In this document: positions 2,018-20,063 of the stretch, one piece after another
Layout of the letters: each line of letters starts with the position of its first letter
Position numbering within the stretch: the stretch's first letter is position 1
From: Candidatus Bathyarchaeota archaeon
GTDB taxonomy: Archaea > Thermoproteota > Bathyarchaeia > 40CM-2-53-6
Direction: 5' to 3'
DNA length: 64,000 bases
NCBI GenBank assembly: GCA_005884195.1
Contig: VBBP01000050.1
Coordinates: 36,345-100,344 of the forward strand
The notes under the pieces: model-generated
Told to the model about the DNA's origin: nothing
Database searches by the model: none
What the model saw: the letters and a program-made list of their open reading frames with translations, nothing else
Translations under genes and position numbers: made by a program

Positions 2018-3034
2018 TTAAGCCACGGCACGGCTGGAACTTGCGGGTTCCACGAAGGGCGGGGCGCGGGAAAATCGACCACCCCCGGGGGTCGAGAAGA
2101 GCATGCTTATTTTTGTAGGGTCTGAGGTTCTCTGCAGTTGAAGATATTCGGCTTCTATCTTCCCGCCTGATTTGAGGTAGAGAAGGGATCCGGGTGCAAG
2201 ATGGTCAAGGAGGGCCAGTGTGTAGACTTTCATCCTCTTCTGGTGTAGTCGTTGTGCTTCGCGAATAGCGGCACTCATTAGGGCTGATCCGATCCTCTTT
2301 TCGCGGAACTTGGGAAGCACGTACGCTCCGTTGAATCTAGCTTCACCGGACCCGTAGGCGTCGGGCCGGAGAATGGCTAACCCGGCTAGTTTCTCGTCAA
2401 GGAAGGCTCCTATCCAGCCGGGCTCCGTGCCGACGGACTCTTTGACCCAGCTCTGGAGTTCTTCCGGTCCGCCCTGTTCTTCAATCCACCAGTCCCAATA
2501 GGGACGAAGTCCTTCAACCCATACTTCTGCTGCTTCGTTCGCATGTTCCTTCGACAGTTCCTCGGTCTGAACATTGCCGCGTTCTGTCGGCTGCTCGATT
2601 AGCTCCCAGCCTATCATGATGGATCTCCTGACGGGTTCAAAGCCGGCATTCTTGTAGACGTCGACGTAGGGCTGAATGGCCGGAACGAACGCACTCAAGG
2701 ATTCTGCGTGGTTCGACTCAGCATAATGTCTCGCTTTTGAGACAAGGTTCTGCGCTAGTGGGATCCTCGATTCTCCATTTTTCACCGCTAGGTATCTGAG
2801 CTCATGCCATTTCTTGCGGGGAAGATCTCTAAGACCTACGCACCCAATAGCCGAACCGTTCTTCTCAGCGATTAAAGATCCCTCTCGGTTTAGAGAGGGT
2901 CCGGTTATCTCGGCCTTAAGACGAGGAAGATATTCGAGTGATTCGTACGAATTTCTCAGGAGTTCGAAGAATATGTTTTCGTCTCCAGGTCGAAAACTTC
3001 TGACTGTTACCTCGGACACTTCCTGAATCTGCAT
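2018..3034 (-). CDS. tandem GNAT acetyltransferase
   Basis: 338 residues with two GNAT-like domains. The N-terminal one begins VTVRSFRPGDENIFFELLRNSY and the C-terminal one includes LPKFREKRIGSALMSAAIREAQRL, which has the R/Q-x-x-G-x-G/A acetyl-CoA pyrophosphate-binding loop (REKRIGSAL). The first domain has a weaker loop and may be degenerate. GNAT enzymes transfer acetyl groups from acetyl-CoA to amines; the substrate here is unknown. The C-terminal tail (GGGRFSRAPPF) is encoded by a short dispersed repeat found again near 56.2 kb, so the tail may be an acquired extension. It is divergently transcribed from the TPR gene. Confidence 0.8.
   Translation of the reverse strand: MQIQEVSEVTVRSFRPGDENIFFELLRNSYESLEYLPRLKAEITGPSLNREGSLIAEKNGSAIGCVGLRDLPRKKWHELRYLAVKNGESRIPLAQNLVSKARHYAESNHAESLSAFVPAIQPYVDVYKNAGFEPVRRSIMIGWELIEQPTERGNVQTEELSKEHANEAAEVWVEGLRPYWDWWIEEQGGPEELQSWVKESVGTEPGWIGAFLDEKLAGLAILRPDAYGSGEARFNGAYVLPKFREKRIGSALMSAAIREAQRLHQKRMKVYTLALLDHLAPGSLLYLKSGGKIEAEYLQLQRTSDPTKISMLFSTPGGGRFSRAPPFVEPASSSRAVA
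2054..2093. repeat. dispersed GC-rich palindromic repeat, copy 1
   Basis: A 40-base element that recurs with about five differences at 56183-56223. It ends in a strong inverted repeat (GACCACCCCCGGGGGTC) able to form a hairpin. This copy lies inside the 3' end of the GNAT gene and encodes its last residues; the other copy is intergenic. It resembles a REP-type element. No transposase is near either copy. Confidence 0.55.
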
Positions 3035-3100
3035 TACGGTCTAACCAGATGGCTCTCATGATAATAAGAGAACCGCTATGTATCGTCGTTTGGGGCAAGG

Positions 3101-4009
3101 GTGTCCGTGGTCGAAGTAGCTGATGGGGTGGGGCGAAAAACCAAGCTTCCAGACTTTGACAGCCTCTGGGATTATGACCATCCGGGCGCGACTGAGAGAA
3201 GATTCCGCGAACTTCTCCCCGCGGCACTAGACTCAAGAGACCTGACATATCTGTCACAACTTCTCACCCAGATTTCAAGAGCGGAGGGTTTACAGCGTAA
3301 ATTCCAAGACGCTCATATGACTCTGGACCGAGTCCAGAAGGCCCTAGAAAAGACTGACGACAGGACGAGGGTCCGGTATCTTCTTGAACGTGGAAGAGTC
3401 TTCAATTCCTCGGGAAAGCAGGACGATGCTCGTCCTCTGTTCCTCGAAGCACTAGATCTCGCGGTCAAGTCCAAAGATGACTCTTATGCTGTTGACGCCG
3501 CGCATATGATGGCTATAGTCGAGACAGCCGAGAAACAGTTGCAGTGGAATCTGAAAGCGCTCGATCTTGCTGAGAATTCTGCGGAAGAAAAAGCGAGAAA
3601 GTGGAGGGGCAGCATCTACAACAACCTAGGCTGGACTTACTTCGAACAACAACAGTATGAAGAGTCCCTCCTCATGTTCGAGAAAGCTCTAGAATTCCAG
3701 CAACAGCAGAGTGATCCGAGCAGGATCATGATAGCAAAGTGGTGCGTTGCCAAGACTCTCAGGATGATGGATCATACTGAGGAGGCTCTGGAAATGCAGC
3801 GAGACCTATACGAGCAATATCAGGCGGCCGGCAAGAGGAGCGGATACGTCTATGAGGAGATCGCTGAATGCATGACAGTAATGGGTCAAGAGCAAGAAGC
3901 TCAGGGATGGTTCGCGGCCGCCTACGAGGAACTCTCAAAGGATCCCCGGCTCGCAAACGAACAAGACAGGCTCAACCGGCTCAAAGAACTGGGAAAAATT
4001 GACTCATAA
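3101..4009 (+). CDS. tetratricopeptide-repeat protein
   Basis: 302 residues, GTG start. The body is a series of helix pairs with the TPR pattern; clear examples are RKWRGSIYNNLGWTYFEQQQ followed by YEESLLMFEKALEFQQQQ near residue 170, and VYEEIAECMTVMGQEQEAQGWF near the C-terminus. No catalytic domain, signal peptide or membrane segment is visible. TPR proteins are protein-interaction scaffolds, so this is probably a soluble adaptor; the partner is unknown. The phosphate transporter follows 30 bases downstream on the same strand and may be co-transcribed. Confidence 0.75.
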   Translation: MSVVEVADGVGRKTKLPDFDSLWDYDHPGATERRFRELLPAALDSRDLTYLSQLLTQISRAEGLQRKFQDAHMTLDRVQKALEKTDDRTRVRYLLERGRVFNSSGKQDDARPLFLEALDLAVKSKDDSYAVDAAHMMAIVETAEKQLQWNLKALDLAENSAEEKARKWRGSIYNNLGWTYFEQQQYEESLLMFEKALEFQQQQSDPSRIMIAKWCVAKTLRMMDHTEEALEMQRDLYEQYQAAGKRSGYVYEEIAECMTVMGQEQEAQGWFAAAYEELSKDPRLANEQDRLNRLKELGKIDS

Positions 4010-4039
4010 GACAACTAGGACTGAAGAGGGCCCCCTTCT

Positions 4040-5020
4040 TTGATTTCGCTTGTTGAAGAAATAGGCCTCGCGGCTCTATTCCTTCTAGCCTTCGCCAACG
4101 GGGCCAACGATGCTGGAAAAAGTGTAGCGTCGCTCATGGTCCCGGGACCCTCCGGCTTTGTACCAAGGCGTAAGCCTCTCCTCTGGGGAGGCTTCTTCAC
4201 CGGGATTGGAAGCCTCTCGGCGATTCTGATCTCGAGTAGGCTCTTCTCAGTCTTCACTCCGCAAAGTCTCCTACGGGCGACACCAGAGTCGCATTTCATC
4301 CTAGCGGCGCTTGCTGGTGCAACGTTGTGGATTCTTGGTGCGACTCTACTTCGGCTTCCTGTCTCCTCGACACATGCGATTGTCGGGGCTATTGTATTCT
4401 TGGCGGTTTACCTGTTCGGATTCTCGGGGATTCAATGGGATTTCCTATTGGTCAGGGTTTTACTTCCCCTGGCAGCAGGACCGATAGCTGCGATGATAGG
4501 AGTATACGCGTTCGATCGAGCAACGCGTCGATCAGGAGTGCCTGGTAAAGAGAAGCCTGGGCTGGCGCGCATAACGCACTGGGGGTCGGGAGCGGCCGCT
4601 GCTTATGCGAGAGGGGTTAATGATGCTCCGAAGATGGCGGCGCTGGGGGCATTCTTTCTCCTCGCGAATCCTTCCGAGGCAGTCTGGCTCCCATACACGA
4701 TTGTTGCCGTTGCTGTATTTCTCGGGTCACTGGTGCTGGGTCATCGGGTGGCGCAGACTGTAATGGGCAAGCATGTCACAATGGACCCGGTTCAGCGGTC
4801 GAAGGCCGGCGCGGCCACTGCTCTAGTGGTGGGTGCCGCAGCTTTCCTAGGAGCGCCCATGTCCACAACACAGGTGCACGAGGGATCGAACGCAGGGATA
4901 GGCGGAGAACGAAAGGTTGTCAAGTCCGTTCTAAGAGGGATGATCCTGCCCTGGCTAGTGACCCTGCCCGCCGCAGGCATGCTCGCCATCTCAATGTCAT
5001 ATCTCGGAGCGTTGATCTAG
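4040..5020 (+). CDS. pit: PiT-family inorganic phosphate transporter
   Basis: 326 residues, TTG start. It carries both halves of the PiT (PHO4) signature: FANGANDAGKSVASLM near residue 18 in the first half and YARGVNDAPKMAALG near residue 190 in the second. About ten hydrophobic helices are present and the central loop is short, as in archaeal members. The family imports phosphate, usually as a neutral metal-phosphate complex, in symport with protons or sodium at the cytoplasmic membrane. No PhoU-like regulator is adjacent. Confidence 0.92.
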   Translation: MISLVEEIGLAALFLLAFANGANDAGKSVASLMVPGPSGFVPRRKPLLWGGFFTGIGSLSAILISSRLFSVFTPQSLLRATPESHFILAALAGATLWILGATLLRLPVSSTHAIVGAIVFLAVYLFGFSGIQWDFLLVRVLLPLAAGPIAAMIGVYAFDRATRRSGVPGKEKPGLARITHWGSGAAAAYARGVNDAPKMAALGAFFLLANPSEAVWLPYTIVAVAVFLGSLVLGHRVAQTVMGKHVTMDPVQRSKAGAATALVVGAAAFLGAPMSTTQVHEGSNAGIGGERKVVKSVLRGMILPWLVTLPAAGMLAISMSYLGALI

Positions 5021-5068
5021 CGAGAATATCATATCGGGTGATATGCAGGGGAAATACGTAACCACGAA

Positions 5069-5539
5069 CTATCGTGCTGTGGGTTTCCTGGAGGGCCTCG
5101 AACGCTGGGTGACTATCTCTCTCCCATCATAAGCAATTTCTATCCAGTACCCGTCTGGGTCTCTGATTTTGATGCTTCTATACTTCTCGTCCGTCATATC
5201 TTGGTAAATTCGAATGTTTTTGCTTCTGAGCCAAGCTCGCCACTTGTCAACTTTGAAAGGTGAATCGACACGGAAACCGAAATGGAAGTCAGAGATTCCG
5301 TAACCCTTTCCATGCAGTACGAGCAGATCCGCCCCTGAAGGAACATAGGCTGCTCGCTGCCCGCTGGCCCTGCCTCTCAGGCCCAGAATGTTTCTGTAGA
5401 ACCTCACCGATCTTTCAAGATCGGTCACCATCAGACCGACGTGGCCTATTCCTAAATTTGCCATTGAGCCGGGACGTAACCGCCTTGGCGTTCCGGATCT
5501 CATGAGGATTCGTCGTCCGACGTTGGATTTATCGTTCAT
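5069..5539 (-). CDS. VOC superfamily protein (glyoxalase/dioxygenase fold)
   Basis: 156 residues as drawn; the conserved domain begins at IGHVGLMVTDLERSVRFYRNILG, so the internal ATG at 5464 (131 residues) is an equally good start. The pattern of H in GHVGL, the mid-domain DFHFGFRV and the C-terminal IRDPDGYWIEIAYD is typical of the vicinal-oxygen-chelate fold, with H, H and E as likely metal ligands. Members include glyoxalase I, ring-cleavage dioxygenases and antibiotic-resistance proteins. The substrate cannot be assigned and the neighbours give no clue. Confidence 0.8.
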   Translation of the reverse strand: MNDKSNVGRRILMRSGTPRRLRPGSMANLGIGHVGLMVTDLERSVRFYRNILGLRGRASGQRAAYVPSGADLLVLHGKGYGISDFHFGFRVDSPFKVDKWRAWLRSKNIRIYQDMTDEKYRSIKIRDPDGYWIEIAYDGREIVTQRSRPSRKPTAR

Positions 5540-5603
5540 CAGTAATCAGGCGCCGGGGCAGAACAAGTGCTTGATCGTACGGTTGCGGTTTAGTGGAAGA
5601 TTG

Positions 5604-8782: not shown

Positions 8783-10123
8783 TCAGGTGTGGGAGGAGCG
8801 TTTGGCCACAATGTTGAAGGGGTCTGAACGGTCTTGACGAAGAGTCTCTTGAGTCAGAGATAGCACTTCTTCACGCAGTTCCCGCGGAATGCTTTTGTTG
8901 AAGTTCTTGGTGGCGAGTTCGTCTACAGTGTCCAGATGGGTTTTTGCCCGGACTCGCAGCAACGAAGCTTCCTCGGCGATGTTCTTGATCTTTGATTCCA
9001 GCAATTCCCTGGAAGCTCGGGATCTAGTGTATTCCGCTCGCAGATCGGACCGTTGGGATCTGAGATGTCTCACGTTGGGGGAGCGTAGAATCTGACTCCT
9101 TGACGTAAAGGCTTCTCGAGCCTCCTTCTGAATTGGTCTGAGTGACCCGTTTATGATTCGTTTCGCCCGCTCAAGTGTCTTTTTCGCCTTTTTCTCGCCG
9201 AGCGGTAGCCTGGTTGATTCGATGGATTCGCATAGTCCTTCGAGCAAGTCTGTCAGTTCCGGATAGCCGTCGGATTCCTTGGCCAAAGTCGTCAGCGGGG
9301 TTTTCACGTATCGCGTCAATACTTCTATTGCCTGTGGATGGGTATGCATTTCTCCCCTATGATGCGACGACAGAAGCCTTGTGAATACCCCGCCCAGTCT
9401 GGACATTTCTTCGTCCAAGAGCTTCTTTCTCAGTCTTTTGAGCTCCGCTTCTTTGGCATTGGCAGCTCGAATCTCGGAATCAGATTCAATCCGCTCTATA
9501 GCTTCTAGAAGGGATCCCTCATTGTAGACAAGTTGGTGAATCTCCTTTTCGAGACGGAAGCGAGAATCTTGAAAATCCTCTAACGTCGCGAGATGCTCGA
9601 CGAGCGTCTTGGAGTGTTCTTGTATTTGGTCATGGATCGACGTGATGTCTCGGGTCCTTGTCCGGAACTGGGACGTTTGGTTGTAGAGCTGCTGCAGCCC
9701 CTCTATCTCCGCTCTAAGCCAACCTCTCTCCGAAGCGTAGTGTGAACCCATCGCTTTCACCGAATCATTGTAGCTTGAACTAGCTACCCGCAACAGTCTC
9801 GTTATGCTCACCTCGAGTTTCGATACCGGCGTGTTCGAACTTGATTTTAGGAACTCACCGCACGCAGCGACAATCTCTCCGGAGACGCGGCTTAGTGCCA
9901 TGGCTGCTCGGAGGCGGCGGGAATCGCCTAAGCCCGACATGTCCCATTTGGTGTTTCGAATGAATTCTCGGCAACGACTCTCCAGAGATGAAGCAAGTGA
10001 ATGTGCGGTCTCTCCTAACTGTCTCGCTTTGGCTTGAAGAGGCTTCAGCTGAGGGTCGATCGCTAAACCCGCCCAGTGTTGGAGAGCTTTCTCGACATCT
10101 GCGGCCTTCTTGCCCTCTTTCAT
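8783..10123 (-). CDS. long coiled-coil protein, unknown function
   Basis: 446 residues with no family I recognise. Nearly the whole chain is helical and heptad-like, with high Glu, Arg, Lys, Leu and Ser content (for example LEKEIHQLVYNEGSLLEAIERI and RASRELLESKIKNIAEEASLLR), so extended coiled coil is expected. There is no Walker motif, membrane segment or signal peptide. It is divergent from the Lrp-type regulator at 10352, and the intergenic region carries a strong dyad. Regulation by that protein is plausible but inferred. Confidence 0.65.
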   Translation of the reverse strand: MKEGKKAADVEKALQHWAGLAIDPQLKPLQAKARQLGETAHSLASSLESRCREFIRNTKWDMSGLGDSRRLRAAMALSRVSGEIVAACGEFLKSSSNTPVSKLEVSITRLLRVASSSYNDSVKAMGSHYASERGWLRAEIEGLQQLYNQTSQFRTRTRDITSIHDQIQEHSKTLVEHLATLEDFQDSRFRLEKEIHQLVYNEGSLLEAIERIESDSEIRAANAKEAELKRLRKKLLDEEMSRLGGVFTRLLSSHHRGEMHTHPQAIEVLTRYVKTPLTTLAKESDGYPELTDLLEGLCESIESTRLPLGEKKAKKTLERAKRIINGSLRPIQKEAREAFTSRSQILRSPNVRHLRSQRSDLRAEYTRSRASRELLESKIKNIAEEASLLRVRAKTHLDTVDELATKNFNKSIPRELREEVLSLTQETLRQDRSDPFNIVAKRSSHT

Positions 10124-10250
10124 AGTTGGGTTGGCCTCTTACTCTGCTTGGAAAGCCTAGGCGGAATCGTTCTCGTTTTCAAAGGTGTAAGATTTCACAA
10201 ACCGCTACACGCTCTGGGTGCCTCCGCAGACGATAGGCAGGGTCGCTCGA

Positions 10251-10269
10251 ATTGCTATATGATAGCAAT
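10251..10269. promoter_or_regulatory. perfect dyad, likely Lrp-type operator
   Basis: Perfect inverted repeat ATTGCTAT-ATG-ATAGCAAT with 8-base arms. It sits in the 228-base divergent region between the coiled-coil gene (start 10123, minus) and the Lrp/AsnC-type regulator (start 10352, plus). The position and symmetry fit an autoregulatory operator for a dimeric HTH protein; binding is inferred. Confidence 0.5.
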
Positions 10270-10351
10270 GTTTTAACAGTTCCTGCTAATGGCAGACATT
10301 GAACAGCAAGTCTTATGATACTCAGTAACATGAGGCCACGGAAGGAACAGA

Positions 10352-10867
10352 TTGACAGGCAAATGGGATCCCACTGGAAGGTTCCCTACTGTGGATTCAC
10401 TTGACATAGCGATATTGGAAAGGATGCTTTCTGACGGCCGAACGACCTTCAAAGAATTAGCAGGAGCCACGAACAACGACAGCCGGACCATTGCAAGCAG
10501 GTTCCAACGACTGGTAGAAACGGGCGTATTGAAACGTGCTACCGTAGAGGTGGACTGGTCAAAGATTGGTTTCACAGCCTCGGCGTACATGGGAAGCACC
10601 ACTGCACTAGGTGAAGATGATAGGAGAAAACTGCTCGAATTCTTGCGGCATGAGCCTCGTGTTCTTGAAGCCTACACCACAATCGGCTCGAATGAGTATT
10701 TCATGAAAGTCGTTGACTTCGACATCGCAACACTTAGATCTGGTATTTGCGCGCCGCTGGAACCTCTAACTGTAGACCTCACCACATCGCTCATTGTCGA
10801 CCCTATCAAATCGACCGACTATTCTGGACTGCTTCGATATCTAAAACATAGGAAAAGCTCCAGTTGA
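10352..10867 (+). CDS. Lrp/AsnC-family transcriptional regulator
   Basis: 171 residues. The N-terminal winged-helix has the AsnC pattern: VDSLDIAILERMLSDGRTTFKELA, then NNDSRTIASRFQRLVETGVLKR as the recognition helix and turn into the wing. The C-terminal part resembles the ligand-binding/dimerisation half of the family but lacks a clear RAM-domain signature, so the effector may differ from an amino acid. A perfect dyad lies 83 bases upstream. Targets may be itself and the divergent coiled-coil gene. Confidence 0.78.
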   Translation: MTGKWDPTGRFPTVDSLDIAILERMLSDGRTTFKELAGATNNDSRTIASRFQRLVETGVLKRATVEVDWSKIGFTASAYMGSTTALGEDDRRKLLEFLRHEPRVLEAYTTIGSNEYFMKVVDFDIATLRSGICAPLEPLTVDLTTSLIVDPIKSTDYSGLLRYLKHRKSSS

Positions 10868-11101
10868 AACCGCTCATTCTAAAGCGAAGCCGAGTAAAGA
10901 CAATCTACGTAACCCTTAGCCTGGTCTAGCGAGGTTCTAGATTCCACTTGAGATTCCTGTGCCATCTGCCTTGGGCATTTTCCAGATAAAAGCGAGAACC
11001 CGTACGTTATGAAATTCTTCTCACGTTCATGTCGCTAGGCCAGATTGTCTTATCGAGCAAGTGTGAACAGATTTATCTCGAGTCTTGACCCATCATGAAG
11101 C

Positions 11102-11437
11102 ATCCTAGCGCCTGAAGAGTCGATTCGTGAAGTTGTCAAGGATTGCATGGACGCCTGGAACAAACATGACGCGAACGCATTTGCATCGCTCTTCGCGAAA
11201 GACGCTGACTTCAAGGACAGCCATCAAACGACCGAGAATATCAAGGTCCCGCTCATAAAACCAGACGTAGCCTCCGTGAATATCTGGTGGAATATGACAG
11301 GTGCCTCGGATGATTCCGGCCAACCTCGACCTCCAAGGCGGGGGATCCTCAACTGGATCATGACGAACGAGGAAGGGAAGTGGCTGGTCAAAGTCATGCA
11401 CAATTTGGACTTGACAGCGATAACCCCGATAAAATAG
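11102..11437 (+). CDS. NTF2-fold (SnoaL/DUF4440-like) protein, start unclear
   Basis: The first ATG (11147) gives 96 residues, but the frame is open back to a stop at 11096 and the upstream codons read LAPEESIREVVKDC, which is a typical first helix for this fold, continuing into MDAWNKHDANAFASLFAKDADF. No ATG, GTG or TTG lies between the stop and 11147, so the start may be non-canonical (ATC or ATT) or there may be a small indel: an ATG at 11095 is in a different frame. The fold forms a small pocket used by isomerases, cyclases and many uncharacterised proteins; the function here is unknown. Confidence 0.6.
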   Translation: MLAPEESIREVVKDCMDAWNKHDANAFASLFAKDADFKDSHQTTENIKVPLIKPDVASVNIWWNMTGASDDSGQPRPPRRGILNWIMTNEEGKWLVKVMHNLDLTAITPIK

Positions 11438-11519
11438 CCCCCGTGAGACAACCACACGACGGGAACGGAATGACGATCGAGCTAATGCTAGGTCAAATGC
11501 AGCATCCTTAATTGCGTTG

Positions 11520-11951
11520 TCAATGACTCAGCGTGGCTGCTTTTGCCTTCGGATATGGTAGCGGATGGACGATGCTTGGGGTCCACTTCTCCCCCCATTT
11601 TCTGTAAGCGGACAAGATATCTCCGAGGTCTTGTCCTTTCTCTGTGAGACTGTAGACAACTGAGAAGGGTTCTGTACCGGTTACCCTCCTCTCAACGATT
11701 CCCATATTCTGCAAATACTTGAGAGTTCGGGAAAGTGTTCGCGCGTTCAGAGCGTCGGGCTTACCCTTTCTCAGTAGATCGTTGAATCGGAGGGGGTTGT
11801 CAAGGAGGTAGTATGAGATGAGGATTCTCCACTCTGAGCCTAGCTTCCTTACCGCTTTGATGACCGCGCATATGTCTCTCCTGCAAAGCTCGCTCCTTCC
11901 CGATGTGATGCTGGAGATATCGGGTTGGCAGCTAGACGCAAGCTTACTCAA
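11520..11951 (-). CDS. HxlR-family winged-helix transcriptional regulator
   Basis: 143 residues, TTG start. The domain order matches HxlR: VRKLGSEWRILISYYLLDNPLRFNDLLR, then NARTLSRTLKYLQNMGIVERRV and a wing with the VVYSLTEKGQDLGDIL motif. HxlR proteins are dimeric repressors or activators that often respond to redox or electrophile stress. A perfect palindrome lies between the gene's TATA-like box and its start codon, which indicates autoregulation. The neighbouring NTF2-fold genes are candidate targets. Confidence 0.88.
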   Translation of the reverse strand: MSKLASSCQPDISSITSGRSELCRRDICAVIKAVRKLGSEWRILISYYLLDNPLRFNDLLRKGKPDALNARTLSRTLKYLQNMGIVERRVTGTEPFSVVYSLTEKGQDLGDILSAYRKWGEKWTPSIVHPLPYPKAKAATLSH

Positions 11952-11962
11952 TGTTATCTATT

Positions 11963-11988
11963 GTAACCTGGTTACCCAGAGATATAAG
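11963..11988 (-). promoter_or_regulatory. HxlR promoter with palindromic operator
   Basis: On the minus strand a TATA-like CTTATATC (11981-11988) is followed by the perfect palindrome GTAACC-A-GGTTAC (11963-11975), then the TTG start at 11951. GTAAC/GTTAC half-sites are typical of HxlR-type operators. Occupancy would block the transcription start, so autorepression is the simplest reading. Confidence 0.6.
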
Positions 11989-12028
11989 CAGAAAGGGACA
12001 CTGGCGTTAGTGCACTATTTTCTTTGAC

Positions 12029-12793
12029 TCATTTTCTTGAATCTTGGGACGTTGAAGTTCCTGTGGAGAGTGAAGGAACACTCTCAATGTCAGTTCCCAT
12101 AAGGTAGCCGCCAAATGCAAGGGCCCATACTAGGATAGGGTAGGCAACGATGCGTTCAATGCCTCCGGGGCCCAAGCCAAGGTCCATTCCAACGCCTGAT
12201 AAGACTGCGGCAACAATGGCGACAGCCCCCGCTACCGGGAACAGTCTGTCTAACGGTTTCACCACGAGTTTTCGAGACTCTATGGCCGACAGGCCGCCGA
12301 AGAAAAATACCAGACCCGAGAGCGCATCGTGCACTATTGCCCCCGCGATAAGAAGGGCTGGAACGTTCGAGATCGGTTGCATGATTTGTTGATCCGCGTA
12401 GACGTAATATGGAATGTACGACAGCGGGAGGGCGACTAGTCCGGCTGCGAAGACAAAGAAAACCTTCCAGAACCTTTTGGCAGGGAACGTCTGCCGAAAT
12501 TGCCAAGCTGCCTCGAGGGACAAGACGGTCAAGATGCTGAGGGAGAGAATGTAGATGATTGATGCTGGCTGGTGTATTGTCAGCATACCCGGGGGGTTTA
12601 GTGGAACTGCTATTGGGGCGCCAAGGTCGCTGATGAAATCCCTGGAGACGCTATAGCCCGGGAAGACAGATTCCGCCACCGCAAGACCGAGGATGAACAC
12701 GGTGTTCCCGATGAACAGCATCATACCCGCTAGTCTTCGAGGAGGAGTATCCTTCAGCAAGGAAAACACCGAGCTACGTTTTGAATGGCACAC
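12029..12793 (-). CDS. DUF998 family membrane protein
   Basis: 254 residues with six or seven transmembrane helices. After the first helix the sequence GYSVSRDFISDLGA matches the DUF998 signature (a conserved S/N-x-x-x-S-D-L-G stretch after helix one). The internal methionine before LFIGNTVFILGLAV is the likely start of the conserved region. The role of DUF998 proteins is unknown. It lies on the same strand as, and upstream of, the HxlR gene. Confidence 0.75.
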   Translation of the reverse strand: MCHSKRSSVFSLLKDTPPRRLAGMMLFIGNTVFILGLAVAESVFPGYSVSRDFISDLGAPIAVPLNPPGMLTIHQPASIIYILSLSILTVLSLEAAWQFRQTFPAKRFWKVFFVFAAGLVALPLSYIPYYVYADQQIMQPISNVPALLIAGAIVHDALSGLVFFFGGLSAIESRKLVVKPLDRLFPVAGAVAIVAAVLSGVGMDLGLGPGGIERIVAYPILVWALAFGGYLMGTDIESVPSLSTGTSTSQDSRK

Positions 12794-14965: not shown

Positions 14966-16213
14966 TTGGGAATAGCGAGTAGCATGAAGAAGAGCGCTTC
15001 ATGGCCTCCTATGCCAGGAACCTATCAGGTAGGCGATCCAAATGGCCCCGTGGCGGTTTGTGCGCTTACGTCGGAGGGTTTGATCGCTCCGCTCGTAGCT
15101 CTTCCGGGAGTGGCCATTGCGGGCATGGTCTATACGGCCAATCTTGGCATTACCCGGATCATTGTCAATATCACGTCTAATCCTGCGATTCGTTTCTTGC
15201 TAATCTGTGGCAAGGATTCTGCGTTATTCAAGCCGGGACAATCTCTTGTCTCTTTGTCCGAGAAGGGTGTTGACGAGAAACGAAGGATCATCGATGCAGC
15301 GGGCTATGACCCAGTCTTACCCTCGATAGCCCCTGAGCAGGTCGCGCAATTCCGGAAACAGGTAGAAATTCTTGACTGGACCGGCGAAGAAGATCTTCAG
15401 GTCTTACAAGAACGGGTGAAGAGTCTCTCTGACCGTAACCCGGGCGTTTTCGTGACGGGACAAAAGGAAGCGAGTTCGCCTAGAAGTCAAGAGGAGTTTG
15501 TGTCTATTCGGCCGGGTGGGCAGCGTGAGCCGTTGTTGTATGATCCGAAGGGATACTTCGTCATCACGATCGAGCCTGAGCAAGGGGAGATACTGCTTCG
15601 ACACTATTTACCTAATCATACGCCGGCTCATGAGATGCGGGGCCGGGGAGCAACCTCGATGCTCCTTGGTCTCTTGCGTGCTGGACTTGTCACACAACTG
15701 AGTCATGCGGGCTACTTGGGCGAGGAATTGGCCAAGGCACAGACAGCGTTACAGTTTGGGTTGCGGTACGATCAGGACCGGTCTTTGAGGGCCAGGGAAA
15801 CGGTTGCTCCTCCACCGTCGTCAGAGGCAAAGGCTCCTGAACCCGCGGCTCCGAAAATAACGCCGACCCAGGCCTATTCTCTGAAGAAACTTGGAGAGAT
15901 CGGTCCCGAAACCTCGGTCGATCTGTTTTTCTCGGTAACTGACACTCCTCGGGACCATGTTCTGGGAGGAATGTTCCTCGATATGGATGAGAGTGGCGCA
16001 TCCCGGGTGTACACTCGAACCTCTCAACGTCTCGAGGTTGAGTGGACGGGGTCGAGTAAGCTGATCATGGGCGGTCTAGCCGACGTGGTCGTGGGAGCGA
16101 TACTGCGGGTTTTTGGTAAGCTGGACGAGAAAAAACTGGTTCACGCGGAGACCCTGATCATCCTGACCAATCTGGCCAAGATCACCGAGCCAAACAAGGG
16201 AAAGGACCAATGA
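14966..16213 (+). CDS. MtrA-like / DUF4346 fusion protein
   Basis: 415 residues; the TTG start abuts the stop of the FMN reductase gene. Residues about 20-150 resemble the corrinoid-binding subunit A of methyl-H4MPT:coenzyme M methyltransferase: YQVGDPNGPVAVCAL, then NLGITRIIVNITSNPAIRFL and GQSLVSLSEKGVDEKRRI. Where methanogen MtrA has GHxTGQ, whose histidine contacts cobalt, this protein reads LFKPGQ, so the ligand is absent. Residues about 190-265 match DUF4346 (GYFVITIEPEQGEILLRHYL). A third domain of unknown type follows a Pro/Ala linker. No membrane segment is present. A role in methyl or C1 transfer is possible but unproven. Confidence 0.72.
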   Translation: MGIASSMKKSASWPPMPGTYQVGDPNGPVAVCALTSEGLIAPLVALPGVAIAGMVYTANLGITRIIVNITSNPAIRFLLICGKDSALFKPGQSLVSLSEKGVDEKRRIIDAAGYDPVLPSIAPEQVAQFRKQVEILDWTGEEDLQVLQERVKSLSDRNPGVFVTGQKEASSPRSQEEFVSIRPGGQREPLLYDPKGYFVITIEPEQGEILLRHYLPNHTPAHEMRGRGATSMLLGLLRAGLVTQLSHAGYLGEELAKAQTALQFGLRYDQDRSLRARETVAPPPSSEAKAPEPAAPKITPTQAYSLKKLGEIGPETSVDLFFSVTDTPRDHVLGGMFLDMDESGASRVYTRTSQRLEVEWTGSSKLIMGGLADVVVGAILRVFGKLDEKKLVHAETLIILTNLAKITEPNKGKDQ

Positions 16214-16529: not shown

Positions 16530-18515
16530 GTGTTCTCGCAGATGACTGGCCGATCTCGCTCCCGGATCACGTCCATGGTATTACTGTTTCTCGGGCTCGC
16601 TCTCACCTCGACCAGTCCAGTGTGGGTCCATGCAGATACGGAGCCTACTGGAATATTCAGAATAACGCTGATGGTTCCTCAGCCGAATCAGGCCCGACAG
16701 AGCTGGTCATTGCTCGTCCAGAGCAACCTTCAGGCGTTGGGCATCGACGCGCAGAGAGTTGTTCTTGACTGGCCCACGATATTCGATAGGGCGCTCACGC
16801 CTGCCTCTGACGTCCTCGGGAGAAGCTATGACAACGGCGGCTTTGACGCACTCTTTCTCGGCTATGCTCTCGGGATAGATGCCGATCCATATTCTTACTA
16901 TCACAGTACACAGTATGCACCGATAGGTAACAACTACTATCTCTGGAACAACAGCCAGAACGACCAGCTGACCACACAGATCAAAGGAACACTAGACAAA
17001 ACACAACGGTTAGATTTGCTAAAACAGTGGCAGGCGTTCACGTATGACCAGCAACCCTCCGCCACGATACTCTACACGAAGGAAATCGTTGCCTTTGATT
17101 ATACAATGCCAAATGCTCAATACGTGTTCAGCACCTACCACTCACCGTATTGGCCGCCGATCGAACAATTGTCGATGCTCGGAGGATCGACGACGGGCTC
17201 GATTACGTTGGCGCAGACGGGACCGGCTCCGTCAGAGGGTTTCAACCCGGCAGTGAGCAGTTCCTACTACGACCAGACCGTGTACGGAGCAATGTTCAGC
17301 GCGTTGGCGCAGAGGAATGATACGATCTTCAAGAACATGATTCCTCAGCTGGCGACTGGCTGGTCTGTCGGGTTAGATCAGAAGACCTGGACCGTATCAT
17401 TGCGTCCCGGGGTGACATGGCATGACGGGGTGCCTTTCAATGCGACAGATGTGAAGTTCACATTTGACGCGCTCCAGGATGACACTCTGGCAGCGGACAA
17501 TGAGGCGTTCATCAAGGGAATAGTAGGCGGAAAAAGCGACGTATCAATCGTGGGCCCGTACACGATCAAGTTCACTCTACCGAATCCCTACGCGTACTTC
17601 GCGGAGAACATTCTCACCACCCCAATCATACCCGCCCACGTGCTAGCGAGTGTTCCATATGCAAACTGGAGAACGAACCCGTTCAACACCGGGATCGGTG
17701 GCGGGCCCATTGGAACAGGGCCCTACAAGTTTGTCAGCTATAATGCAACAACTGAGACTAATCGCCTGACAAGGAACGATAACTACTTTGATTTTCCACA
17801 GAACGGGAAGACCGCTCTTCAGAGCCGGGGAGCTTTCGAAGTTAAGGACTATTATGTCAAACACATACCCAGCTCCGATAATGCCGTTTCCGCCCTGAAG
17901 ATGGGCTCGGTAAACGTTCTAGACGCACAGTACGCTCTGGAGACCCAGACGAGTTTTCTCGCCTCCTGGCCGTCGAGCCAGTGGACGTCTTACGACGGGT
18001 TCGGGGTCCAGGAGCTAGGCTTCAACATGAAACACCCAATATTTGGAACAGGCGTCAATACCCCGCTGGGCCTTAGTGATTCTTCAAAGGCCTCTCTTGC
18101 CGCCAAATATGTTCGTCAAGCTATCAGCTACGCGATCCCGAGAGATCTGATAATACAGCAACTTCTCGCCGGATACGGTAACCCAGGGATAACCACTCCG
18201 GTCGTCGGCAACTACCGGACGGGCTTCGCGGTCACCGATGGGTTCAACACTGCTCTCACCCCGTACAGTTTCAACCTCACAAAATCCCGACAGTTACTGC
18301 AGGCTGCGGGCTTCTTCCCGGCCGCCCCTCCAAGCATCTGGCAAACCTGGGGATTCGCCGTCACCGTCATGCTACTGGCAACAGCGATCACGCTTGCAGC
18401 CCTCTACGCAGTAGAGGCGAGGCGAAACCGTGCTACCCGCTCAATACCATCAACATTACAGTCGTCGGCAGCGTCATCGAGCAATCCAGTGCGTCCGCCT
18501 TCCGCCGGCTCCTAG
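16530..18515 (+). CDS. circularly permuted family-5 solute-binding protein
   Basis: 661 residues, GTG start (or ATG at 16542). A signal peptide (MVLLFLGLALTSTSPVWVHA) is followed at residues about 45-215 by what is normally the C-terminal lobe of an oligopeptide-binding protein: NLQALGIDAQRVVLDW, DALFLGYALGIDADPYSYY and DKTQRLDLLKQWQAFTYDQ. The normal N-terminal part then follows (TWTVSLRPGVTWHDGVPFNATDVKF; GTGPYKF), ending with YVRQAISYAIPRDLIIQQLL and SRQLLQAAGF, where a C-lobe would usually begin. A C-terminal helix (WGFAVTVMLLATAITLAALY) anchors it. No permease or ATPase is adjacent, so it is an orphan receptor. The ligand is unknown. Confidence 0.85.
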   Translation: MFSQMTGRSRSRITSMVLLFLGLALTSTSPVWVHADTEPTGIFRITLMVPQPNQARQSWSLLVQSNLQALGIDAQRVVLDWPTIFDRALTPASDVLGRSYDNGGFDALFLGYALGIDADPYSYYHSTQYAPIGNNYYLWNNSQNDQLTTQIKGTLDKTQRLDLLKQWQAFTYDQQPSATILYTKEIVAFDYTMPNAQYVFSTYHSPYWPPIEQLSMLGGSTTGSITLAQTGPAPSEGFNPAVSSSYYDQTVYGAMFSALAQRNDTIFKNMIPQLATGWSVGLDQKTWTVSLRPGVTWHDGVPFNATDVKFTFDALQDDTLAADNEAFIKGIVGGKSDVSIVGPYTIKFTLPNPYAYFAENILTTPIIPAHVLASVPYANWRTNPFNTGIGGGPIGTGPYKFVSYNATTETNRLTRNDNYFDFPQNGKTALQSRGAFEVKDYYVKHIPSSDNAVSALKMGSVNVLDAQYALETQTSFLASWPSSQWTSYDGFGVQELGFNMKHPIFGTGVNTPLGLSDSSKASLAAKYVRQAISYAIPRDLIIQQLLAGYGNPGITTPVVGNYRTGFAVTDGFNTALTPYSFNLTKSRQLLQAAGFFPAAPPSIWQTWGFAVTVMLLATAITLAALYAVEARRNRATRSIPSTLQSSAASSSNPVRPPSAGS

Positions 18516-18776: not shown

Positions 18777-20063
18777 CTATCGAGCGGGAAAAGCCAACAG
18801 TTCGAGGTATGAGTGTGTTAGGATTTTTGTGATGCTTACTAGGTCGTTTATGCGTACGTGTTCGTCGATTCCGTGGATGTTGCTGTCTTGTCGTGTAGCG
18901 CCTAGCACGGCTACGGGGATTCCTAGGTTAGTGACAACTGCCATATCGGTAGACCCTTGACTTCCCGCCAGTGGCGTGTCTCGTCCTAGAACCTTTCTCG
19001 CTTGTTTCCGGACCACTTTGACTAGCCTGTGGTTGGGATCAGTGAGCATCGGATCGTATCCGAGAATCTTTTTCATCGATACCTTAGCGGGACTACTCTT
19101 TGCGAACTCTCTTACGACTGTGTTGATCTCTTTCTCGACTATTGCGGCTTTTTCTTCTGGTATGAATCGTCTGTCGACTAGGATCTCACATGTGTCAGGT
19201 ATGATGTTGCCTTTCAGGCCGCCTTTGATCATGTTCACGTAGAGGCCTGGCCGCATCTTCTTGGTCCCGTACATCGGCTCCGAGGGAATCTTCGATCTTC
19301 TCTTCCCGATTTCCTGACCTAGAGCTTTCAATTTCTCGATCAAACCAGCCGCCACCTCAATCGCATTGACTCCAGTCCAGCCCCGGCCCGAGTGAGCCGC
19401 CACACCTTTCACAGTGATGACATACTCGGCATCTCCTAACGCTGCTACATGGAGCACTTCTATTCCGCTGTCACTGGATATGCAATAATTGATATCCTTC
19501 GTAATCACGTGTTTATCGACTAGATAGTTGACGCCGGTGTACCCGCCTACTTCTTCATCGGTTGTAAAGGTCGGAATAATCACCCCGGAGAACTTTGCAC
19601 CAGTCTCGACTAACGCCTTCAACGAAAAGATTGTACAAGCGTCCGCCCCTTTCATGTCAGCCGCGCCCCGCCCATAGATCTGGTTATTCCTGATTGTAGG
19701 CTCGAACGGGTCGTTGGTCCATCCTGACGGGTCCGCTGGGACAACATCCACATGCCCGTTCAGAAGTATCTTCGGCCCTTCGCCCTCCCCCTTGAGAGTC
19801 GCATACGTATTCGGCCTAGGACCCTTCAATCCGACTTCGGGGCTAACCCTCTTTTTGATCGTGGCCTCGGGAATATGGCTCACAGTAGGCGTAACACCCA
19901 GCTCCTTGAGCTCCCGAGCAAGAACCTGCGAGATCTTCGGATAGTTCAAACCCGGAGGAACAGTAGTATCAATACTGACGAGGCGGCAGGTAAGATCAAC
20001 CAGATCCTTCTTGTGAGCATCAATCCAACGATCAACCTGTCTAACGGCAGTTTGGGACTGCAA
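18777..20063 (-). CDS. M20 family metallopeptidase (ArgE/DapE/CPG2 type)
   Basis: 428 residues, TTG start. The zinc-site motifs occur in order: LLNGHVDVVPAD (His), GRGAADMKG (bridging Asp), TTDEEVGGYTG (catalytic Glu pair) and a late NIHGIDEHV histidine. The lid/dimerisation domain lies between about residues 205 and 325. Members hydrolyse amide bonds in N-acyl amino acids, succinyl-diaminopimelate or dipeptides; the position does not specify the substrate. Its first 55 codons and promoter region are duplicated at 21697-21917. Confidence 0.9.
   Translation of the reverse strand: MQSQTAVRQVDRWIDAHKKDLVDLTCRLVSIDTTVPPGLNYPKISQVLARELKELGVTPTVSHIPEATIKKRVSPEVGLKGPRPNTYATLKGEGEGPKILLNGHVDVVPADPSGWTNDPFEPTIRNNQIYGRGAADMKGADACTIFSLKALVETGAKFSGVIIPTFTTDEEVGGYTGVNYLVDKHVITKDINYCISSDSGIEVLHVAALGDAEYVITVKGVAAHSGRGWTGVNAIEVAAGLIEKLKALGQEIGKRRSKIPSEPMYGTKKMRPGLYVNMIKGGLKGNIIPDTCEILVDRRFIPEEKAAIVEKEINTVVREFAKSSPAKVSMKKILGYDPMLTDPNHRLVKVVRKQARKVLGRDTPLAGSQGSTDMAVVTNLGIPVAVLGATRQDSNIHGIDEHVRINDLVSITKILTHSYLELLAFPAR

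Follow-up and report, generated by a model that had tools for sequence, protein, structure and literature searches.

Solute-binding proteins (SBPs) of family 5 (PF00496), among them AppA, DppA, OppA and NikA, have their N-terminal (N), middle (M) and C-terminal (C) modules in the canonical order N-M-C. The only natural permuted SBP met in the literature searched is MglB-2 (Tp0684) of Treponema pallidum, the 'Type Ic / Cluster Bc' representative of the Type I SBPs, which still binds D-glucose and changes conformation in spite of its circular permutation (PMC4990184). A general route to rotated but complete folds is permutation by duplication, as in the DNA methyltransferases and swaposin (PMC3320104). 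No earlier account of a permuted family-5 SBP was found in the literature searched, the subscription literature lying outside its scope.

Module order of the window protein

The window, that is, the whole stretch of 64,000 nucleotides that was analysed, comes from a fragmented Bathyarchaeia metagenome assembly of 72 contigs. The earlier note had placed in it an open reading frame encoding a circularly permuted oligopeptide-type binding protein, and the frame was recovered exactly as claimed (Table 1); its ATG is the likelier start, the alignment of most orthologues beginning at this Met.

Table 1. Predicted features of the permuted SBP gene and its conserved neighbours (window coordinates)
Feature	Position	Strand	Basis and remarks
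Circularly permuted family-5 SBP, CDS	16530..18515	+	661 aa from GTG 16530; likelier start ATG 16542
N-terminal signal peptide, residues about 5-36	16542..16637	+	Hydropathy peak and sequence; putative cleavage site VWVHA/DT
C module, residues about 41-215 (AppA 358-515); canonical C-terminal part, here first	16650..17174	+	Relatives' profile; PF00496 profile 288-360 at 16656-16910
N module, residues about 222-430; canonical N-terminal part	17193..17819	+	phmmer, PF00496, relatives' profile; LRPGVTWHDG and GPIGTGPYKF motifs
M module, residues about 431-598; canonical middle	17820..18323	+	phmmer, module and relatives' profiles; PF00496 profile 2-278 at 17337-18314; ends KSRQLLQAAGF, the normal C-module junction
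C-terminal transmembrane anchor, residues about 605-628, then basic cytoplasmic tail	18342..18413	+	Hydropathy maximum 606-613
M20-family peptidase, convergent neighbour	18777..20063	-	PF01546; kept beside the permuted gene in L032-L035 and L038
MtrA-like / DUF4346 protein, upstream neighbour (context only)	14966..16213	+	Domain match and orthologue loci; conserved with the SBP

The family assignment is clear, PF00496 scoring 192.1 bits against a gathering cutoff of 32.4, and the two reversed matches which the earlier note had proposed as a check of its reading were indeed obtained. Among PDB sequences the best phmmer match was Bacillus AppA (1xoc), in rotated form: residues 285-421, 525-594 and 43-188 correspond to AppA 80-209, 280-343 and 360-494, an alignment that is collinear after rotation. 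A profile of 12 relatives mapped residues 41-207 to AppA 358-515 first and then residues 218-593 to AppA 18-354, so that all the sequence parts of family 5 are present in the protein. Only three AppA residues separate the two mapped pieces; the ring is therefore complete, and what has changed is the place of its opening. The module order is C-N-M and not the canonical N-M-C, and on its sequence the protein is classed as a circularly permuted family-5 variant rather than one of canonical DppA/OppA topology. The permuted profiles matched none of the PDB chains listed collinearly across both halves. The 60 PDB matches listed for the window-protein profile are annotated as SBPs for peptides, nickel, heme or sugars or as others of the family-5 type, MglB being absent from them, and the protein does not belong to Type Ic / Cluster Bc, the permuted Type I sugar-binding fold. 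An AlphaFold2 run on eight closely related rows (the window protein and seven close homologues) gave a pLDDT of 38 and a pTM of 0.28, values too low for the model to be of use.

The motif order is also as previously described, with GIDADPYSYY at about residue 115 preceding LRPGVTWHDG at about residue 291. By hydropathy the protein carries the secretion signal and the membrane tether looked for in family 5, the peaks falling at residues about 13-17 and within the C-terminal segment, in agreement with the signal peptide and anchor proposed before. No second C half, including a frameshifted normal one, was seen 3' of the stop codon, which bears out the same statement of the earlier note. Its description of a C-lobe placed first stands in so far as the canonical C-terminal part leads; the moved piece, however, is not a whole lobe. 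In AliD, domain I comprises residues 29-63, 191-296 and 583-617, domain II residues 64-190 and domain III residues 297-582 (PMC11192437). Judged by its position against the AliD/OppA layout, the C-N-M cut probably falls inside domain III, and the moved piece (the first ~180 mature residues) probably represents the second half of domain III together with the closing strand of domain I. As a family-5 SBP has its two ends in the same domain, domain I, such a rotation is structurally sensible.

Orthologues of the same order with 88-91% identity were found in several genomes (L003-L008, L032-L035 and L038). Against six orthologues, dN/dS was 0.04-0.13 in each of the C, N and M modules and 0.17-0.43 for the signal peptide and tail; values well below 1 indicate purifying selection and rule out a pseudogene. 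In the conserved upstream neighbour an MtrA (methyltransferase subunit A) domain is fused to a DUF4346 pterin-binding domain. Like the window gene with its M20 neighbour, the SBP operons of L251 (Halorussus), L249 (Nitratireductor) and L250 (Roseomonas) are flanked by M20 or M28 peptidases, and the SBPs of L250 and L251 are C-N-M by module scan.

Circular orders and transporter linkage across family 5

Module HMMs were made from the window protein over the N, M and C residue ranges of Table 1, and the order was read in all fetched loci. After removal of rows with >80% identity within an order there were 45 C-N-M, 39 N-M-C and 32 M-C-N proteins and one M2-C-N-M1 protein (L196, by sequence also M2-C-N-M1, is tallied among the M-C-N rows), so that family-5 SBPs exist in at least four circular orders. 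The C-N-M order of the window gene is present in several Bathyarchaeia families and in another family of Thermoproteota (f30: L223-L234), and on plasmids both of Alphaproteobacteria (Salipiger, Neorhizobium, Roseomonas) and of haloarchaea (Natrinema, Halorussus, Halobaculum), the order being confirmed there by module scan; the M-C-N order is widespread in Thermoproteota. The survey of homologues which had been suggested as a further check thus showed the permutation to be widespread. The gap between the C and N modules has a median of 55 residues in both of these permuted orders, with ranges of 44-72 for C-N-M and 45-82 for M-C-N proteins. Deinococcus plasmid matches (H3/H4) that looked permuted in tblastn were discarded, L247 (H3) being canonical and two pieces having been joined. 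The viral contigs searched gave one weak match only. In one locus (L009/L037/L054, G018:C65) a 1077-aa C-N-M SBP is followed by PKD/Ig-like repeats and then by a transmembrane anchor.

Most C-N-M relatives sampled directly adjoin dppBC(DF), usually in divergent orientation, in loci of 8-19 kb (L053, L055-L060, L062, L064, L065, L071, L132-L143, L145-L149, L151 and L171), and bacterial and haloarchaeal C-N-M genes have two ABC permease genes and ATPase genes before or after them. Proteins of the M-C-N order, too, are encoded in dpp operons (L063, L066-L070, L152-L164, L166, L169 and L170). Permuted SBPs free of nearby dpp genes include L054, L144, L167 and L168. The fetched flanks of the window gene and of its near orthologues held no dpp genes, and the earlier note was right that no transporter genes are adjacent at this locus, while most of the sampled C-N-M relatives do adjoin dppBCDF. 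The window gene is thus an orphan in a group with transporter linkage. Close homologues (72-100% identity) of the DppB of the operon-linked relatives occur in 3 of 18 members of the genus, the window genome not being among them; its best match, at 43%, is the DppB of contig C68, which carries the one complete dpp operon that was detected in the genome (L052, C68:19400-39393). That operon contains two SBPs (2327-5563 and 9459-12557 of the locus), both M-C-N and over 1000 aa long, with a large insert and dockerin-like C-terminal repeats. Transport by the window SBP via the C68 Dpp importer would thus be possible.

We consider it very likely that the window gene encodes a secreted, membrane-anchored binding protein of the DppA/OppA type and a true circular permutant. 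In this protein a short linker (a C-to-N gap of about 55 residues in the module models) would connect the canonical termini, which both belong to domain I, and the chain would be opened anew at a loop separating M from C, probably within domain III. The permuted chain would fold into the same two-lobed clamp, capture a peptide-like ligand extracellularly and deliver it to an ABC importer of the Dpp type. As the window copy is an orphan, its partner transporter would be encoded elsewhere. The neighbouring M20 peptidase would fit a role in peptide use.

A different function, less probable but deserving serious attention, is that the orphan copy has ceased to be a transport SBP and acts as an anchored peptide scavenger or sensor together with other surface proteins or with the M20 peptidase. 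The lack of nearby transporter genes, the lack in this genome of a close homologue of the relatives' DppB and the conservation of the peptidase neighbour all speak for it. However, a complete Dpp importer is available on C68, the fold modules are as constrained as those of a working clamp should be, and SBPs are commonly encoded away from their own transporter.

Among bacterial C-N-M SBPs, the two nearest to the window protein (L245 and L246, from Salipiger and Neorhizobium plasmids) lie beside flavin-dependent monooxygenases, and this neighbourhood suggests that their ligand is other than plain peptides.

Repeated origins and different points of opening

In a maximum-likelihood tree of 117 proteins with the modules re-ordered, 31 M-C-N rows form one group (89/78) and 35 non-redundant C-N-M rows form one clade (100/95). 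Inside the latter lies L040: its order is the canonical N-M-C, but its neighbours in the tree are C-N-M proteins of the same family (100/99), and a topology that groups three near C-N-M relatives to its exclusion was rejected (p-AU 0.004). This gene (L192, G018:C66, 3358-5243) adjoins dppBCD and bears a frameshift at the M/C junction which is due either to its being a pseudogene or to a sequencing error. Given its canonical order and its nesting among C-N-M proteins, L040 looks like a return to the canonical order, seen in a frameshifted gene.

A second C-N-M group (L071 and L195, of the window's genus) branches with the canonical L178 and L207 (100/96). Joining it to the main clade was rejected by 115 log-likelihood units (p-AU 2e-60), and this test rules out a single origin of all C-N-M proteins. 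Further C-N-M rows (haloarchaea, Roseomonas, L149/L062, L171 and L235) are placed elsewhere with weaker support. The well-supported branches alone require at least four changes for C-N-M; support is weak for the deep branches, and the exact count of permutation events is uncertain.

In the second group, L196-L198 are opened at another point, within M: their chains begin with M positions about 36-48 to 136 and close with M positions 1-43. Over the common C-N part these proteins share 52-55% identity with L071/L194/L195, and they occupy the same operon position next to dppB, so that M2-C-N-M1 and C-N-M are here orthologous transporter genes of one genus opened differently. Beyond what the earlier note had claimed, the permutation is old, is also bacterial, arose more than once and is accompanied by other cut points.

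The likeliest genetic route would be tandem duplication or fusion followed by trimming, that is, permutation by duplication, taken several times in the family. No intermediate with two full copies of any module was present among the proteins examined. The end of L071 holds a possible leftover beta strand (SLAISLSMFQTDALERNWL, against SITLWYNSTGHY at the start of the same protein), which is no more than suggestive.

The same order of modules could also result from a deletion between two different SBP genes in tandem, by which the C half of the first became joined to the N half of the second, and neighbouring or tandem SBP genes do exist, two of them on C68 of the window genome. We regard such a chimera as unlikely: together the pieces cover a single AppA chain almost without gap or overlap, the arrangement is ancient, being common to the 35 non-redundant proteins of the main clade, and both pieces are under equal constraint. 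If the joined genes had been near-identical paralogues, the event would simply be the duplication route to permutation. An assembly or annotation artefact that swapped the halves, conceivable in a fragmented metagenome assembly, is of negligible probability, as the gene is one open frame without stops and many genomes show the same order, among them single-contig records and complete plasmids (those of Salipiger, Neorhizobium, Natrinema and others).

The family-5 SBPs probably constitute an evolutionary ring with a moving opening, with at least four orders among archaeal dpp-operon proteins (C-N-M being bacterial too), repeated origins, one apparent return in the frameshifted L040 and two cut points among the orthologous operons of one genus. 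This situation is seemingly undescribed.

Significance and comparison with known systems

As far as the searched literature goes, natural permutation of SBPs was previously known from one Type I sugar-binding group. A major SBP family with several rotations in operon-linked genes provides natural material on the cut points that the clamp tolerates, and allows tests of how permutants evolve, with regard to intermediates and canonical return, and of tethering as a driver of the choice of ends. In practice, annotation that is blind to domain order hides such differences in topology, and structure or profile comparisons that depend on order will mis-score permuted SBPs.

The window protein shares with AppA, DppA, OppA and NikA all the modules, the key motifs, the signal peptide and, through its relatives, the link to dppBCDF, but its order is C-N-M where that of the known members is N-M-C. 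MglB-2, the nearest precedent, is likewise a natural circular permutant, a membrane-tethered protein and an SBP of an ABC transporter; in contrast to the family-5 window protein, it has the Type I (cluster B) sugar-binding fold and another cut point, and it belongs to a group found in spirochaetes and Gram-positives. The M-C-N SBPs of Thermoproteota (L030, L067 and those on C68 of the window genome itself) are also permuted family-5 proteins, mostly located in dpp operons, but their cut separates N from M rather than M from C, and they form a separate group in the tree. Unlike the described cases of permutation by duplication, the present one combines several cut points and an apparent canonical return within one family of transporter proteins.
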